The notes beneath the pieces are model-generated. The model was not told the origin of the DNA, made no database searches, and saw only the letters and a list, made by a program, of their open reading frames with translations. Position numbers and translations under genes: made by a program. A DNA stretch of 64,000 bases from Anaerolineae bacterium. GTDB lineage: Bacteria; Chloroflexota; Anaerolineae; Aggregatilineales; Phototrophicaceae. Shown here piece by piece: positions 18,562 to 30,945 of this stretch (the stretch's first letter is position 1; the number at the start of each line of letters is the position of its first letter). Where the stretch lies: the NCBI GenBank assembly GCA_022822305.1, contig JAJEBY010000016.1, forward strand, positions 930,001-994,000. The letters are read 5' to 3'.

Positions 18562-18571
18562 AAAAAGCAAA

Positions 18572-18596
18572 GAGACCGACACAATGTGTCGGTCTC
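18572..18596 (-). terminator. Terminator of the sulfur-carrier operon
   Basis: GAGACCGACAC and GTGTCGGTCTC form a perfect 11-bp stem with a 3-base loop. Read on the minus strand it is followed by TTTGCTTTTTC, a T-rich tract, which fits termination after the MoeZ-like gene ending at 18620. The stem may also stop korB transcripts from the other side, although the T tract is poor in that direction. Confidence 0.75.
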
Positions 18597-18619
18597 CCCA
18601 TCTGCTCAACTCCCCAGCT

Positions 18620-19864
18620 TTAATACTTCGGCATTTCAGGATCGATCTCGTCCGCCCAGGCCAGGATCCCGCCTTCGACATTGAACATCTTGTCGAGGTC
18701 ATAGCCTATTTCGGACAGGAATGCGATGCTGTCCGCGCTGCGCTTTCCCGAGCGGCAATGCACATAAAGAGTCTTGTCCCTGGGGATTTCCTTCAGAACT
18801 GTTTCTTCCCAGAGCCGGCGGCCGGCCTGAATGCCGTTCTTCGCCAACTGAATGTCCGGTTTGGGAATGCGCAGGGTGCCTTCGATGGCGCTGATATCCC
18901 ATTCGTGCGGATCACGCACATCCACCACCACAACATCTTCGCCATTTTCGAGCGCGGACTTGACATCGTACACATTAACCGTCTGGATCTCTAAATCCTC
19001 GCTATCCTCGACCGCGCTGAACTCGCTATGATCGTGCGCGGGCATGCCGCAAAACTGTTCGTAATCGATCAGTTCAACAGCATCTTTGGGTATTCCGCAG
19101 ACCGGACAATTGGGATCCTTGCGCAGCTTGATCGTTTGGAAACTCATATCCAGCGCGTCATACAGCAGCATGCGACCGATCATCGGTTCACCGATGCCCA
19201 GAAGCAGCTTGATCGCCTCGGTCGCCTGCATGGTGCCGATCGTGCCCGGCAGTATGCCCAAGACGCCACCTTCCGCGCAGCTGGGCACCAATCCCGGCGG
19301 CGGCGGTTCCGGGAACATGCATCGATAGCATGGCCCTTGCTCGGCATAGAACACGCTCAGCTGACCCTCAAAGCGGAAAATACTGCCGTATACATTTGGA
19401 ATCCCCAGTTTGACACAAGCATCGTTGACCAGATAACGCGTCGGAAAATTATCCGTTCCATCGATGACCACATCCCAGTCTTCGCTGAAAAGGCGCAGCG
19501 CGTTATCTGAGGTCAGCGGTTCATCATATTTGACCACGCATATATCCGGGTTGAGATCGAGCATGCGTTCGGCCGCGCTATCGAGCTTCGATTTGCCAAC
19601 CGTGCTCACGCCATGGATGACTTGACGCTGCAGGTTGGTGAAATCTACCACGTCGTAATCGACCAAACCGATGCGTCCGATGCCCGCCGCCGCCAAATAC
19701 AGCGCGAGCGGGCTGCCCAAACCGCCAGTGCCGATCAAGAGCACGCTCGATGCCTTGAGCCGGCGCTGCCCGTCGATGCCAACTTCCGGCATGATCACAT
19801 GACGACTGTAACGCTTCACTTCATCGTTGGTGAGTTCAGCAAGTCGCGCGTGCAATGCTACCAT
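18620..19864 (-). CDS. moeZ: MoeZ-type E1 adenylyltransferase-rhodanese
   Basis: A 414-residue E1-like enzyme that adenylates the C-terminal Gly of a ubiquitin-fold sulfur carrier and then places sulfur on it. The ThiF/MoeB domain (1-265) has the nucleotide motif GTGGLGSP (45-52), zinc ligands Cys179, Cys182, Cys253 and Cys256, and Cys196 in CAEGGVLGILPG. The rhodanese domain (about 295-410) has its persulfide Cys370 in HCRSGKRS. This architecture matches MoeZ of Mycobacterium and human MOCS3. It follows the CysO-like gene with one base between stop and start, with GGAG upstream, so the two are translated together. It probably serves that carrier, though MoaD or ThiS might also be substrates. 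Confidence 0.92.
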   Translation of the reverse strand: MVALHARLAELTNDEVKRYSRHVIMPEVGIDGQRRLKASSVLLIGTGGLGSPLALYLAAAGIGRIGLVDYDVVDFTNLQRQVIHGVSTVGKSKLDSAAERMLDLNPDICVVKYDEPLTSDNALRLFSEDWDVVIDGTDNFPTRYLVNDACVKLGIPNVYGSIFRFEGQLSVFYAEQGPCYRCMFPEPPPPGLVPSCAEGGVLGILPGTIGTMQATEAIKLLLGIGEPMIGRMLLYDALDMSFQTIKLRKDPNCPVCGIPKDAVELIDYEQFCGMPAHDHSEFSAVEDSEDLEIQTVNVYDVKSALENGEDVVVVDVRDPHEWDISAIEGTLRIPKPDIQLAKNGIQAGRRLWEETVLKEIPRDKTLYVHCRSGKRSADSIAFLSEIGYDLDKMFNVEGGILAWADEIDPEMPKY

Positions 19865-19865
19865 T

Positions 19866-20165
19866 TCAGTTCTCCAATTCTGACTGCGAGAGCATTAGAC
19901 CGCCGGCGATGCTGGGAATGATCCTCAAACTGTCGTTGGCATCAATTTCCGTGTCCAATCCCTGCAGGAATCTGATGTCTTCGTCGTCTATAAAAATGTT
20001 CACAAAGCTGCGCAATTCATCGTTGTTGAACAGATGCGTCCGAAGATCCGGGTGCTGCGCTACTAAACTGGCGAGCGCCTCGCCAACGGTATTCCCGTCC
20101 ACGTCGATAGTAGCCTTGTCGGCCGTGTACATTCTCAGCGGCGTCGGTATGCGAATCTGTGCCAT
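19866..20165 (-). CDS. cysO: CysO/MoaD-like ubiquitin-fold sulfur carrier with C-terminal tail
   Basis: A 99-residue beta-grasp protein. The core IRIPTPLRMYT, FVNIFIDDEDIRF and DSLRIIPSIAGG blocks closely resemble mycobacterial CysO as I remember it (FVNIYVNDEDVRF, VTILPAVAGG). CysO carries sulfur as a C-terminal thiocarboxylate for cysteine synthesis. Here the Gly-Gly is at residues 88-89 and is followed by ten more residues, LMLSQSELEN, so the protein cannot be adenylated until the tail is removed. The neighbouring JAMM protease is a fitting processing enzyme. The start ATG is preceded by GGGAG. No cysM-type cysteine synthase is in the window. Confidence 0.85.
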   Translation of the reverse strand: MAQIRIPTPLRMYTADKATIDVDGNTVGEALASLVAQHPDLRTHLFNNDELRSFVNIFIDDEDIRFLQGLDTEIDANDSLRIIPSIAGGLMLSQSELEN

Positions 20166-20275: not shown

Positions 20276-20704
20276 TCACGTGACCTCAAGCGTCAATTGG
20301 TCGAATGCGCCCCGATCGGCACGCAAATTCCATACGCGCATCTCCACCGCCCTGCCCATGGTGACCGATGTGATAACGTAGACGAAATTCGGCAACGCAT
20401 GTTCACGGTCATACTCGGACGGTATGGCGGGCGAATCAGGATGGCTGTGATAATAACCCACCAAGCTGAGGCCGCGCGCCTCCGCTTCGTCTTCCAACCG
20501 CATCCAGTCTTGCGGGCGCATCGCATAGCGGTGATGCTGCTCTTCTAAGGCGAAAACATTTTCCACCTGAATGTTGTCCTCAATGACAGCCGCGCCAGAA
20601 TTGATATGCCCCAGCAAGAATCCTCCGCCCTCATTCGGATACGAACATTCCATCTGGTCGAAGATATTCCTCTGCATTGCGCTCGCCAAACGAACAGACC
20701 GCAT
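20276..20704 (-). CDS. mec: JAMM/Mov34 metalloprotease (Mec-like)
   Basis: A 142-residue zinc isopeptidase of the JAB/MPN+ family. All metal and catalytic residues are present: Glu25 (NEGGGFLLG) and the HxHPx6SxxD signature as His86, His88, Ser96 and Asp99. In mycobacteria the homologue Mec releases cysteine from the CysO-cysteine adduct; in Pseudomonas the related QbsD trims residues after Gly-Gly of its carrier QbsE. Either role fits here. The start at 20704 follows a GAGG and matches the family N-terminus. A longer frame up to 20872 would overlap the terminator hairpin and leader peptide, so it is rejected. A gap of 110 bases separates it from the CysO-like gene. Confidence 0.9.
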   Translation of the reverse strand: MRSVRLASAMQRNIFDQMECSYPNEGGGFLLGHINSGAAVIEDNIQVENVFALEEQHHRYAMRPQDWMRLEDEAEARGLSLVGYYHSHPDSPAIPSEYDREHALPNFVYVITSVTMGRAVEMRVWNLRADRGAFDQLTLEVT

Positions 20705-20733: not shown

Positions 20734-20761
20734 AAGAGCCAACCGTTTCGCGTTGACTCTT
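20734..20761 (-). terminator. Attenuator terminator upstream of the JAMM gene
   Basis: On the minus strand AAGAGTCAAC (20761-20752) pairs with GTTGGCTCTT (20743-20734), ten base pairs including one G-U, around the loop GCGAAACG. A U-rich run (TTTTGCTT) begins within the 3' arm and continues past it. It lies between the leader peptide and the first structural gene, 30 bases before the JAMM ATG, and no other minus-strand gene upstream would need it. Confidence 0.7.
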
Positions 20762-20823
20762 GTGTTTGCCTGATCCGAATCCGGATTCTGTCGTCAAACA
20801 TTTACTAAGCAAGGTCGAACGCG
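20749..20823 (-). promoter_or_regulatory. Proposed antiterminator of the cysteine attenuator
   Basis: CGCGTTCGAC (20823-20814, leader codons 26-29) can pair with GTCAACGCG (20757-20749), nine base pairs with one bulged C. The second segment is most of the 5' arm and the loop of the terminator, so the two structures exclude each other. The 12-base palindrome GAATCCGGATTC (20788-20777) lies in the intervening loop. A ribosome stalled at the Cys codons would leave the first segment free; one reaching the stop codon would cover it. Confidence 0.6.
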
Positions 20824-20900
20824 GGTCGCCTCCTGCGGCTGCAACAACAACAGGAGCAGATATCGACACCACAACATTGAATCGAGAACATGAACATCAT
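20805..20900 (-). CDS. Cysteine-rich leader peptide
   Basis: A 31-residue open frame (MMFMFSIQCC, then GVDICSCCCC, then SRRRRPAFDLA) with seven Cys codons at positions 9, 10, 15 and 17-20, ending at a TAG 43 bases before the terminator hairpin. The codons for Cys17-Cys20 lie inside a further hairpin, CTCCTG with CAGGAG. A protein function is unlikely. Composition and position are those of a ribosome-stalling leader that senses charged tRNA-Cys. No ribosome binding site precedes the ATG, but the likely promoter places the transcript start within a few bases of it, so translation may be leaderless. Initiation could also use the ATG at codon 2 or 4. Confidence 0.7.
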   Translation of the reverse strand: MMFMFSIQCCGVDICSCCCCSRRRRPAFDLA

Positions 20901-20907
20901 GGACGCA

Positions 20908-20936
20908 AGATTAGCACGGTGACTCAGAATCTGCAA
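20908..20936 (-). promoter_or_regulatory. Possible promoter of the leader and sulfur-carrier operon
   Basis: On the minus strand TTGCAG (20936-20931) and TAATCT (20913-20908) are 17 bases apart, and TGC directly precedes the -10 hexamer. The predicted start of transcription falls at about 20901, at the leader ATG. The -35 match is poor. Confidence 0.35.
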
Positions 20937-29197: not shown

Positions 29198-30916
29198 TTA
29201 GCCGTTGAGGACGTACCCCAGTTCGACCAGCTTGTCTATTACCAGCCGCGCATTGTCTTCGGGTGTCGTGCCCTCAGCGGTCAAGACAAATTCGGGATTG
29301 AGCGGCGGCTCATACGGATCGTCGATGCCGGTGAATCCCTTGATTTCGCCGCGGCGCGCCTTGGCATACAGTCCCTTGACATCGTGCGCCTCAACGTATT
29401 CGAGCGGCGTCGCCATGTGGATTTCCATGAAGCCGTCACCGACCATGTTGCGCGCGTTTTCGCGCGTCGCCCGATAGGGACTGATGGCCGCGCAAACGAC
29501 CATGCCGCCATGCCTCACGATTTCGCTGGCCACATATCCGATTCGCCGGATATTGGTATCGCGATCTTCTTTGCTGAATCCCAATCCCTTGGACAAATGC
29601 GTGCGCACCACATCGCCATCGAGCACGGTCACATTGCGCCCTTTTTCCAGCAGCAAGTTGACAATGCATTCCGCGGTCGTCGACTTGCCGGAGCCGCTCA
29701 GTCCAGTGAACCAAAGACATACGCCGCGACGGTGTCGCGAGGGATAACTGTCCGCAAGGATGTGCGCTACTTCCGGCCGCGAGAACCAACGCGGCAACGG
29801 CACGCCTTTGCCAAGGTAGTCTTCGCGCACTTGCGTGCCGGAGATTTTACGAACTTTGGCGTCCGCCGGCAGTCTGGAACTCTCCTCATAACGGTCTTCG
29901 TCCTCCAGATAGACCATTTCCGTGAATGGAACCGGTTTAACGCCGAGCTCCTCCGCATGCGCCATCACCAGATCTTGCGCGTCATAGGGACCATAGAATG
30001 GATTGCCCTGCGAGTCTGGACCTGGTCCGGCGTGATCTCGCCCTACGATCAAATGATTGGCGCCATAATTGCGCCGGATAATCGCGTGCCAGACGGCCTC
30101 GCGCGGGCCGCCCATGCGCATCGCCAATGGCAGCAGCGAAAGCAAGCTGCGATCTGTTTCATAGTAGTTATCGATCAGCGCCTTGTAGACGCGCACCCGC
30201 GTATAGTGATCGACATCGCCCGGTTGCGTCATGCCGACAACCGGGTGCAGCATCAGCACGCCATCAACCGCGGCCGCGGCCCGTTTCGTCAAGGCTTCAT
30301 GAACGCGATGCAGCGGATTGCGCGTTTGAAACGCCACGACATTTTCGTGTCCGTAAAACTCCAGGACGGCGCGAGTTTCGGCGGGCGTTCGGCGGAGTTC
30401 GGCGAAATCCGGATGGTGAGGCAGCTGCAATACTTCTAGTCGACCGGCGATATTCAACTTGCCCCAGCGATGCATTTCCGCGACGATCGGATGACGGGTA
30501 TCATTCTTGCCGAAGACTTTGGTCGCCGTTTCTTCCAAGTCCCACGCGTAGACTTCGTCGATATGCTGAATCGCCAGGATGTTGTTCCTGCGATCGCGCA
30601 AGGCTACGACATTGCCGACCGCAATCGCGTCATTGGGCTCGACCGGCAAGGTAATCGGTATGGGAAACAGCGTGCCGTCCGTGAGACGCATGGTATCCAG
30701 TACGCTTTGGAAGTCCGCCTGACCCATGAATCCGCACAGCGGCGAAAACGCCCCAACTGCCAGTAACTCCAGATCGCATTCAACGCGCGCGCTCACCTGC
30801 ACCGACGGCAGATTGCCCGCAAATTCCATCTTCGCTTCCAATTCATCGGATGCCGCAAGCAGGTTGACCAACCTGCCCCCATACGGCGCGATCAACTCGG
30901 TTTTGACCTGAATCAT
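29198..30916 (-). CDS. Bifunctional ATP sulfurylase / APS kinase
   Basis: A 572-residue enzyme for sulfate activation: sulfate to APS, then APS to PAPS. The N-terminal ATP sulfurylase (to about residue 385) has QTRNPLHRVH at 197-206 and GRDHAGPG at 292-299. The C-terminal APS kinase has the P-loop GLSGSGKST at 405-413 and DGDVVRTHLSKGLGFS. The order sulfurylase-kinase is that of the fungal-like and Aquifex-type fusions. ATG at 30916 is chosen because GGAG lies just ahead of it, inside the alternative start at 30928. It supplies reduced-sulfur pathways and so connects with the sulfur-carrier operon at 18620-20704. Confidence 0.93.
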   Translation of the reverse strand: MIQVKTELIAPYGGRLVNLLAASDELEAKMEFAGNLPSVQVSARVECDLELLAVGAFSPLCGFMGQADFQSVLDTMRLTDGTLFPIPITLPVEPNDAIAVGNVVALRDRRNNILAIQHIDEVYAWDLEETATKVFGKNDTRHPIVAEMHRWGKLNIAGRLEVLQLPHHPDFAELRRTPAETRAVLEFYGHENVVAFQTRNPLHRVHEALTKRAAAAVDGVLMLHPVVGMTQPGDVDHYTRVRVYKALIDNYYETDRSLLSLLPLAMRMGGPREAVWHAIIRRNYGANHLIVGRDHAGPGPDSQGNPFYGPYDAQDLVMAHAEELGVKPVPFTEMVYLEDEDRYEESSRLPADAKVRKISGTQVREDYLGKGVPLPRWFSRPEVAHILADSYPSRHRRGVCLWFTGLSGSGKSTTAECIVNLLLEKGRNVTVLDGDVVRTHLSKGLGFSKEDRDTNIRRIGYVASEIVRHGGMVVCAAISPYRATRENARNMVGDGFMEIHMATPLEYVEAHDVKGLYAKARRGEIKGFTGIDDPYEPPLNPEFVLTAEGTTPEDNARLVIDKLVELGYVLNG

Positions 30917-30945
30917 GAACTGCTCCATCTATTCTTGATGCGAGA

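Follow-up and report, generated by a model that had tools for sequence, protein, structure and literature searches.

A predicted cysteine attenuator upstream of a JAMM, CysO-like and MoeZ-like operon, with related leaders at other sulfur operons, in a lineage of Chloroflexota

Introduction

Leaders rich in Cys codons are known to precede cys operons of Actinobacteria, without evident terminators in the accessible part of that account (PMC1262725). In mycobacteria, excerpts of later papers describe the poly-Cys short ORFs as leaderless (Canestrari et al. 2020, via PMC9094748, PMC13236596 and PMC4633059) and the leaders as working by translation attenuation (PMC13236596). Judged against those excerpts, the system described here resembles the mycobacterial ORFs in its Cys-codon leader, which is probably leaderless, and in its occurrence at several cysteine-related operons; it differs from them in its conserved intrinsic terminator and antiterminator strand, in its phylum, in its association with a CysO/JAMM operon and in the tandem leader at cysH. 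A second relative is the uORFC-8-2 motif of Rhodobacterales, a Cys uORF and intrinsic terminator upstream of cysS for which transcription attenuation has been predicted, according to the available portion of the paper (PMC8632094). As described there, the Cys codons of the uORF are followed by an intrinsic terminator, as here, but the motif usually has two tandem Cys codons at positions 14-15 and precedes a tRNA synthetase gene of Alphaproteobacteria, whereas our leader has up to seven Cys codons, the targets are biosynthetic operons and the gene in the window encodes a JAMM protein. Streptomyces lividans provides leaderless leader peptides combined with Rho-independent terminators (leuL2, trpL1 and ilvL; PMC8079986, in part), an arrangement like ours but for other amino acids, with no Cys among the eight named in that excerpt. 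Tandem attenuators are found in Salmonella mgtCBR, where the signals are ATP and proline (PMC3641672, in part); two leader ORFs in series serve one operon there as at our cysH locus, but the two signals of mgtCBR differ while both cysH units code for Cys.

Each of the elements has precedents: attenuation by cysteine, leader peptides that are leaderless, and attenuators in tandem. The combination, the host group, the target operon and a mixed Met/Cys form are new to the literature searched. That search, which left most subscription papers outside, found no cysteine leader in Chloroflexota, and those texts that join Chloroflexi, leader peptides and attenuation deal in their relevant passages, as far as available, with subjects other than cysteine. 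A first-pass annotation of this DNA, which had read a cysteine attenuator from the sequence, likewise knew of no description for a CysO-type operon in Chloroflexota. If the reading given below is true, cysteine-codon attenuation governs several sulfur operons jointly in bacteria other than Actinobacteria and Proteobacteria, and the JAMM, CysO-like and MoeZ-like operon of uncultured Chloroflexota is tied to amino-acid supply.

Results and Discussion

The element in the window

The window, meaning the whole stretch of DNA analysed, is 64,000 nt of contig JAJEBY010000016.1 from an Anaerolineae bacterium, and the whole case is comparative and computational. The element lies on the minus strand and has the following parts.

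20931..20936, minus strand: -35-like hexamer TTGCAG, with a 17-nt spacer to the -10; a weak consensus match
20908..20916, minus strand: extended -10, TGCTAATCT, 7 nt upstream of the leader ATG
20805..20900, minus strand: leader ORF of 31 codons plus stop, with seven Cys codons, probably leaderless
20841..20852, minus strand: run of four Cys codons (codons 17-20), the predicted stall site
20814..20823, minus strand: predicted antiterminator strand CGCGTTCGAC (codons 26-29), from complementarity and ribosome-position folding
20734..20761, minus strand: intrinsic terminator hairpin, -13.1 kcal/mol, with a U run from 20733

The leader frame, which reads MMFMFSIQCCGVDICSCCCCSRRRRPAFDLA, runs from the ATG at 20900 to a TAG stop at 20807-20805 and has its Cys codons at positions 9, 10, 15 and 17-20. 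Its stop is followed after 43 nt by the hairpin (AAGAGTCAAC-GCGAAACG-GTTGGCTCTT; 10 pairs, a loop of 8 and a U run), and the hairpin after 29 nt by the JAMM ATG (20704). Both the Cys-rich frame with its spacing and the 10-bp terminator before the JAMM gene, as annotated in the first pass, were recovered (20900-20805 and 20761-20734). Within the leader, CGCGTTCGAC (20823-20814) is complementary to GTCAACGCG, which lies in the terminator 5' arm and loop.

Comparison and computation make it very probable that this element works as a ribosome-mediated transcription attenuator responding to cysteine. The transcript would begin at, or right beside, the first base of the leader's start codon (20900), so that a ribosome following the polymerase would load on an ORF that is leaderless. 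When Cys-tRNA(Cys) is scarce, the ribosome would stall on Cys codons 15-20, leaving codons 26-29 free to pair with the terminator 5' arm, and this antiterminator pairing would let RNA polymerase read into the jamm, cysO-like and moeZ-like genes. When Cys-tRNA is ample, the ribosome would reach the stop and cover codons 26-29, the terminator would form and transcription would end. The start site, the translation of the leader, the stalling and the response to cysteine are what we infer; the anatomy, conservation, fold logic and clade range are matters of observation.

General scans of the window were run as well. The sigma-70 consensus scan reported no promoter on the minus strand at this place, and the window hexamers match poorly. 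A terminator scan of the window alone gave 5 sites in 2.9 kb versus 2.8 in shuffles, so the evidence for the terminator is its conservation. The fold of the whole leader was no more stable than shuffles (z -0.05), and Rfam 15 at gathering score reported, over the whole window, two tRNAs only and no riboswitch, T-box or leader family.

Conservation in relatives

All 98 genomes of the family search had a JAMM match at E <= 0.001. In seven of them (G002, G008, G046, G050, G061, G072 and G096) the best match does not reach 1e-11 and is probably to a paralogue. Of the 353 loci from a scan of named genomes, the best 80 were used; 73 of the 80 bear titles of Chloroflexota groups, and 28 belong by coordinates to the window's genus. 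With the window this makes 81 loci; 78 have at least 290 nt upstream (L064, L068 and L072 were dropped), and 73 remained after removal of five from other phyla (L107-L111), in which the leader was not found. Two loci were retained despite Proteobacteria and Bacteroidetes MAG titles (L065 and L080); among other doubtful rows of the 73, L106 starts inside the gene and L059 is a near-repeat of L056.

Leaders were scored as ORFs lying 6-8 nt after a TAnnnT box, by their Cys count per 8 codons. A leader with at least two Cys was present in 64 of the 73 loci (40 dinucleotide-shuffle rounds: mean 2.4, maximum 6), with at least three in 51 (mean 0.4, maximum 2) and with at least four in 31 (mean 0.0, maximum 0), counts that overstate independence because the loci share ancestry. 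The antisense strand gave 0, 0 and 0 by the same three thresholds. In 13 of the 64 the leader has no more than two Cys per eight codons. A terminator-like hairpin occurred in the last 140 nt of 67 of the 73 loci, against a mean of 9.1 and a maximum of 10 in eight shuffle rounds. Nine loci gave no leader match (L078, L082, L085, L093, L094, L099, L100, L104 and L106), the first three of them having Cys ORFs that lack the promoter spacing. The first-pass annotation had held that loss of the Cys frame or of the pairing in close relatives would speak against attenuation by cysteine; leader and terminator are kept in most relatives, and these figures support the attenuation reading.

Conservation of the ORF might also be expected if it encoded a small functional protein, metal- or thiol-binding, with a terminator of its own, since small Cys-rich proteins exist and the ORF is kept in most relatives. 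We judge this the least probable of the explanations considered and would be greatly surprised by it: the Cys patterns vary from CCCC to MCMCMC while the remaining peptide is widely variable, the peptides at cysM and cysH are unlike that of the JAMM leader, and the codons beyond the Cys run pair with the terminator. An attenuator remains our preferred reading.

Four further genomes of the genus with a JAMM orthologue were read individually. In G063, G080 and G090 a Cys leader lies downstream of the promoter. G064 (L310) keeps the promoter and the leader ATG, but has neither the Cys run nor the terminator, and its JAMM ATG stands 52 nt after the leader ATG. Either the attenuator was lost naturally or the assembly is in error here; the two missing parts are absent together, as if they were one unit. 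At L038, also of this genus, an AAG replaces the leaderless ATG about -203 from the JAMM gene, with promoter, Cys codons and terminator kept, which may again reflect an assembly error or a loss; the entry for L038 among the 64 is an in-frame GTG instead of the leaderless ATG.

Beyond the family, a search across the class gave matches at E <= 1e-15 in 86 of 298 genomes. Of these 86, 73 lie outside the family, and 40 of the 73 were read, namely all 6 from the same order and 34 of 67 from beyond it. Two of the six (L227 and L228) and none of the 34 combine a terminator with a leader that has three Cys in eight codons; L243 has Cys ORFs without a terminator and L249 a terminator without a Cys ORF. 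A CysO-like gene lies beside JAMM in 28 of the 40. Hence the attenuator looks like a trait of the clade and not of the operon.

A leaderless start

The 64 loci were chosen by a TAnnnT box at 6-8 nt, with 7 preferred where several fitted, so that the box itself, whose end lies 7 nt from the ATG in 53 loci, 6 in 5 and 8 in 6, is not independent evidence. Unselected features are the TG of an extended -10 (59 of 64), a -35 TTG at a spacing of 15-19 (62 of 64) and the lack of any SD-like motif before the leader ATG (0 of 64 loci). The ATG is the sole possible start in 10 of the 64. The leader ORF is probably leaderless, with a predicted start site. Leaderless signals were seen in 4 of 12 Chloroflexi genomes, at 4.7% on average, in the accessible part of one report (PMC3160421).

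Ribosome position and the terminator

Folding was modelled at equilibrium, with kinetics ignored. The ribosome was represented by masking the RNA to a point 12 nt from the first base of the codon in the A site, a footprint that is a rule of thumb. For the window, the probability of the terminator was 0.00 when the codon in the A site was Cys15, 17, 18 or 19, 0.02 at Cys20 and 0.15 at Cys9 and Cys10, versus 0.87 with the ribosome at the stop and 0.61 without a ribosome. With the ribosome on Cys codons, the 5' arm was paired with upstream RNA at 0.75-0.91. None of 200 shuffles of the stretch from the last Cys codon to the terminator switched as strongly, in a comparison with slightly different stem limits that gave the window 0.98 and 0.00. 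A mutually exclusive antiterminator governed by ribosome position, as had been claimed for codons 26-29, is present in the window in silico.

Across the 64 loci, the mean probability of the terminator was 0.93 at the stop and its minimum on Cys codons 0.61, the null values being 0.90 and 0.86 (12 shuffles per locus, 200 for the window). The switch exceeded 0.5 in 21 of the 64, the window among them, compared with 4.8% of pooled shuffles; the other 43 do not switch above 0.5 at equilibrium and would need kinetic (co-transcriptional) trapping, which we infer for them. In transcripts truncated ahead of the 3' arm, the 5' arm was more sequestered with the ribosome on Cys than at the stop, by 0.35 versus 0.15 in the null, and 52 of the 64 loci lay above the null mean. 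The leader tail is also complementary to the 5' arm and loop of the terminator, with a mean z of -1.59 over the 64 JAMM loci and p <= 0.05 in 24 of them; the complementarity of the window, at p 0.06, is not significant alone.

Compensatory changes in the stems, which the first-pass annotation had called for, were absent from the JAMM antiterminator within the genus, where 133 of 500 shuffles reached the covariation score in an alignment in which MAFFT misplaces the window's antiterminator; they were found in the corresponding helix of the second attenuator at cysH, described below. The antiterminator pairing falls in different registers in two subgroups of the genus, and RNAalifold on 28 loci recovered the terminator and nothing else. 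A further hairpin proposed around codons 17-20 (CTCCTG with CAGGAG) does appear in the MFE fold, but no more than 2 of the 64 loci have the two hexamers together, so it is not a conserved part.

These results bear on whether control is exerted on translation instead, a stalled leader ribosome freeing the ribosome-binding site of JAMM and the hairpin being incidental. The Cys systems of M. smegmatis are so termed in the available part of one paper (PMC13236596), conserved terminators were not found behind mycobacterial Cys leaders in the accessible part of another (PMC1262725), and the leader here is probably leaderless too. A U-tailed hairpin has nevertheless been kept in 67 of the 73 loci against 9.1 in shuffles, and the terminator arm has a pairing partner in the leader tail, so translational attenuation seems to us very improbable and transcription attenuation the better reading.

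The JAMM operon and cysteine synthesis

Downstream of the terminator, the operon comprises the following.

20276..20704, minus strand: JAMM protease gene (Prok-JAB, 1.3e-23)
19866..20165, minus strand: CysO-like sulfur carrier gene (ThiS family), product with IIPSIAGG and a ten-residue tail
18620..19864, minus strand: gene for a MoeZ-like E1 (ThiF) with a rhodanese domain
18568..18600, minus strand: 15-pair terminator-like site 3' of the MoeZ-like gene, the likely operon end

The JAMM protein contains HSHPDSPAIPSEYD, which we take to be the HxHx7SxxD signature, and its solved relative by sequence is the Mov34/MPN protein 2kcq. Solved relatives of the carrier are the ThiS/MoaD protein 4n6e and, at E 3.6e-14, M. 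tuberculosis chain 3dwg_C, presumably CysO, although the record itself says culture filtrate antigen. A CysM-like protein of the same genome matches 3dki_A, an O-phosphoserine sulfhydrylase, at E 2.9e-59; cysteine synthases B such as 2jc3 and 2bht outscore it. The gene set of the CysO-Mec-CysM pathway is thus present, with JAMM, a GG carrier and a MoeZ-type E1 in one operon and the CysM-like gene elsewhere in the genome. No cysE was found above the cut-off in this 94.3% complete genome, there being one weak match (33.8 bits vs 210.65); such an absence would agree with a CysO/CysM route. A ubiquitin-like tagging role for the operon could also have been guessed.

Residues beyond the carrier GG were present in 46 of the 47 loci with a readable end (of 75, the window and L032-L106), of which L100 looks like a chance match; with such a tail, JAMM may first need to trim the carrier. 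In five loci (L069, L096, L099, L101 and L106) carrier and E1 form a single in-frame fusion.

Other sulfur operons

Runs of four consecutive Cys codons occur at 55 places in the window's own genome, which with their surroundings reduce to 47 sites. Thirteen of these sites lie in ATG or GTG ORFs of at most 60 codons, and 6 of the 13 have a terminator-like hairpin. Three of the six are the JAMM, cysM-like and cysH operons; the others (L116, L129 and L151) were rejected by eye as further Cys attenuators for their long irregular stems and poor U runs. Because the survey rests on runs of four codons, shorter Cys leaders may be missed; a three-codon pattern gave 709 places, and the regulon list is incomplete. 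The cysM and cysH operons, and the tandem arrangement, had gone unseen in the first-pass annotation.

The leader MHYQTCCCCCCLKR with a terminator precedes a PLP-enzyme gene of the CysM/CysK kind (PALP; contig C2). It has a TTGACA-17-TATGCT promoter and GGAG upstream of its ATG, so the cysM leader is not leaderless. On contig C4 (L223, G000), MFQARCSTCCCQTLSNR with a terminator and then MTLNISVCCACCCCCSAPMWPDYPMLA with a terminator lie upstream of cysH, in an operon that runs from PAPS reductase (cysH) through siroheme-synthase-type, CbiX-domain and tetrapyrrole methylase genes to a nitrite/sulfite reductase. The three operons would form a small regulon, with two attenuators in series at cysH. 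Their functions fit cysteine control, being the supply of CysO, a CysM-like synthase and an operon from PAPS reductase to sulfite reductase. The bifunctional sat-cysC gene differs in its upstream region, where none of the ORFs in the preceding 424 nt reaches two Cys in eight codons.

29198-30928 of the window: sat-cysC, bifunctional gene

Comparison of cysM and cysH used the best 30 loci per search, all of the window's genus. A cysM leader (at least four Cys in eight codons) with a terminator was present in 30 of 30 by a loose rule and 27 of 30 by a stricter one, and two tandem Cys units at cysH in 29 of 30; at the thirtieth cysH locus (L197), the second ORF runs into its own terminator. On the antisense strand, an ORF reaching four Cys in eight codons occurred in 1 of 30 cysM and 1 of 30 cysH loci. 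Outside the genus, a Cys ORF with a terminator was seen in 17 of the 20 cysM loci read (of 59) and in 11 of the 20 cysH genomes read (of 28), 8 of the 11 being read as tandem.

Complementarity between tail and terminator was marked at cysH (first units mean z -2.1, 20 of 29 at p <= 0.05; second units -3.5, 27 of 29) and weak at cysM (7 of 27 at p <= 0.05). In the antiterminator of the second cysH unit, two-sided changes affect 3 of 10 pairs in 5 cells, three of them in L219-L221 and possibly a single event; none of 500 shuffles reached the number of cells or the covariation score, and two reached the number of pairs. The cysM and first cysH units of the own genome showed no equilibrium switch at any ribosome position. 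The tandem cysH units offer a direct test of how two attenuators combine.

Mixed Met/Cys leaders

The 35 JAMM leaders outside the window's genus contain 11.2% Met and 11.5% Cys among residues after the start, versus 2.1% Met and 14.9% Cys in the 29 within it. Outside the genus, at least three internal Met were present in 24 of the 35, and MCM or CMC in 23 of the 35 (composition shuffles: mean 2.7, maximum 8). Neither motif was seen, by reading, in 17 cysM leaders with a terminator outside the genus.

The near-equal shares of Met and Cys, the excess of MCM and CMC, and their absence at cysM suggest that the JAMM leader outside the genus may read both sulfur amino acids, the Cys-only form being the genus's own. 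We advance this tentatively, as possible but short of probable: the Met codons might instead serve RNA structure or frame, and some Met occurs in G063 of the same genus as well. Such dual sensing is compatible with attenuation and not exclusive of it. In Wolinella, a JAMM-carrier route leads to methionine. The carrier here may feed methionine synthesis as well.

A wider picture, to which we would give somewhat less than even weight, is of a Chloroflexota lineage whose sulfur assimilation stands under ribosome-run transcription attenuators: the leaderless JAMM-CysO leader, mixed Met/Cys in most genera, would answer to both amino acids and its carrier feed both, cysM would answer to Cys alone, and cysH would have two Cys gates in series. 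The Met/Cys leaders provide a direct test of whether one leader reads two amino acids. Leaders rich in both residues (MCMCMC, MMCMSCMPMMMGMC) occur for example at L065, L076, L080 and L097, with dual sensing possible there.

Codon choice was also noted. The Cys codons of the leaders at the 64 loci show a TGT:TGC ratio of 177:86 (TGT in 177 of 263), versus 6:22 in eight genes of the window (TGC in 22 of 28).
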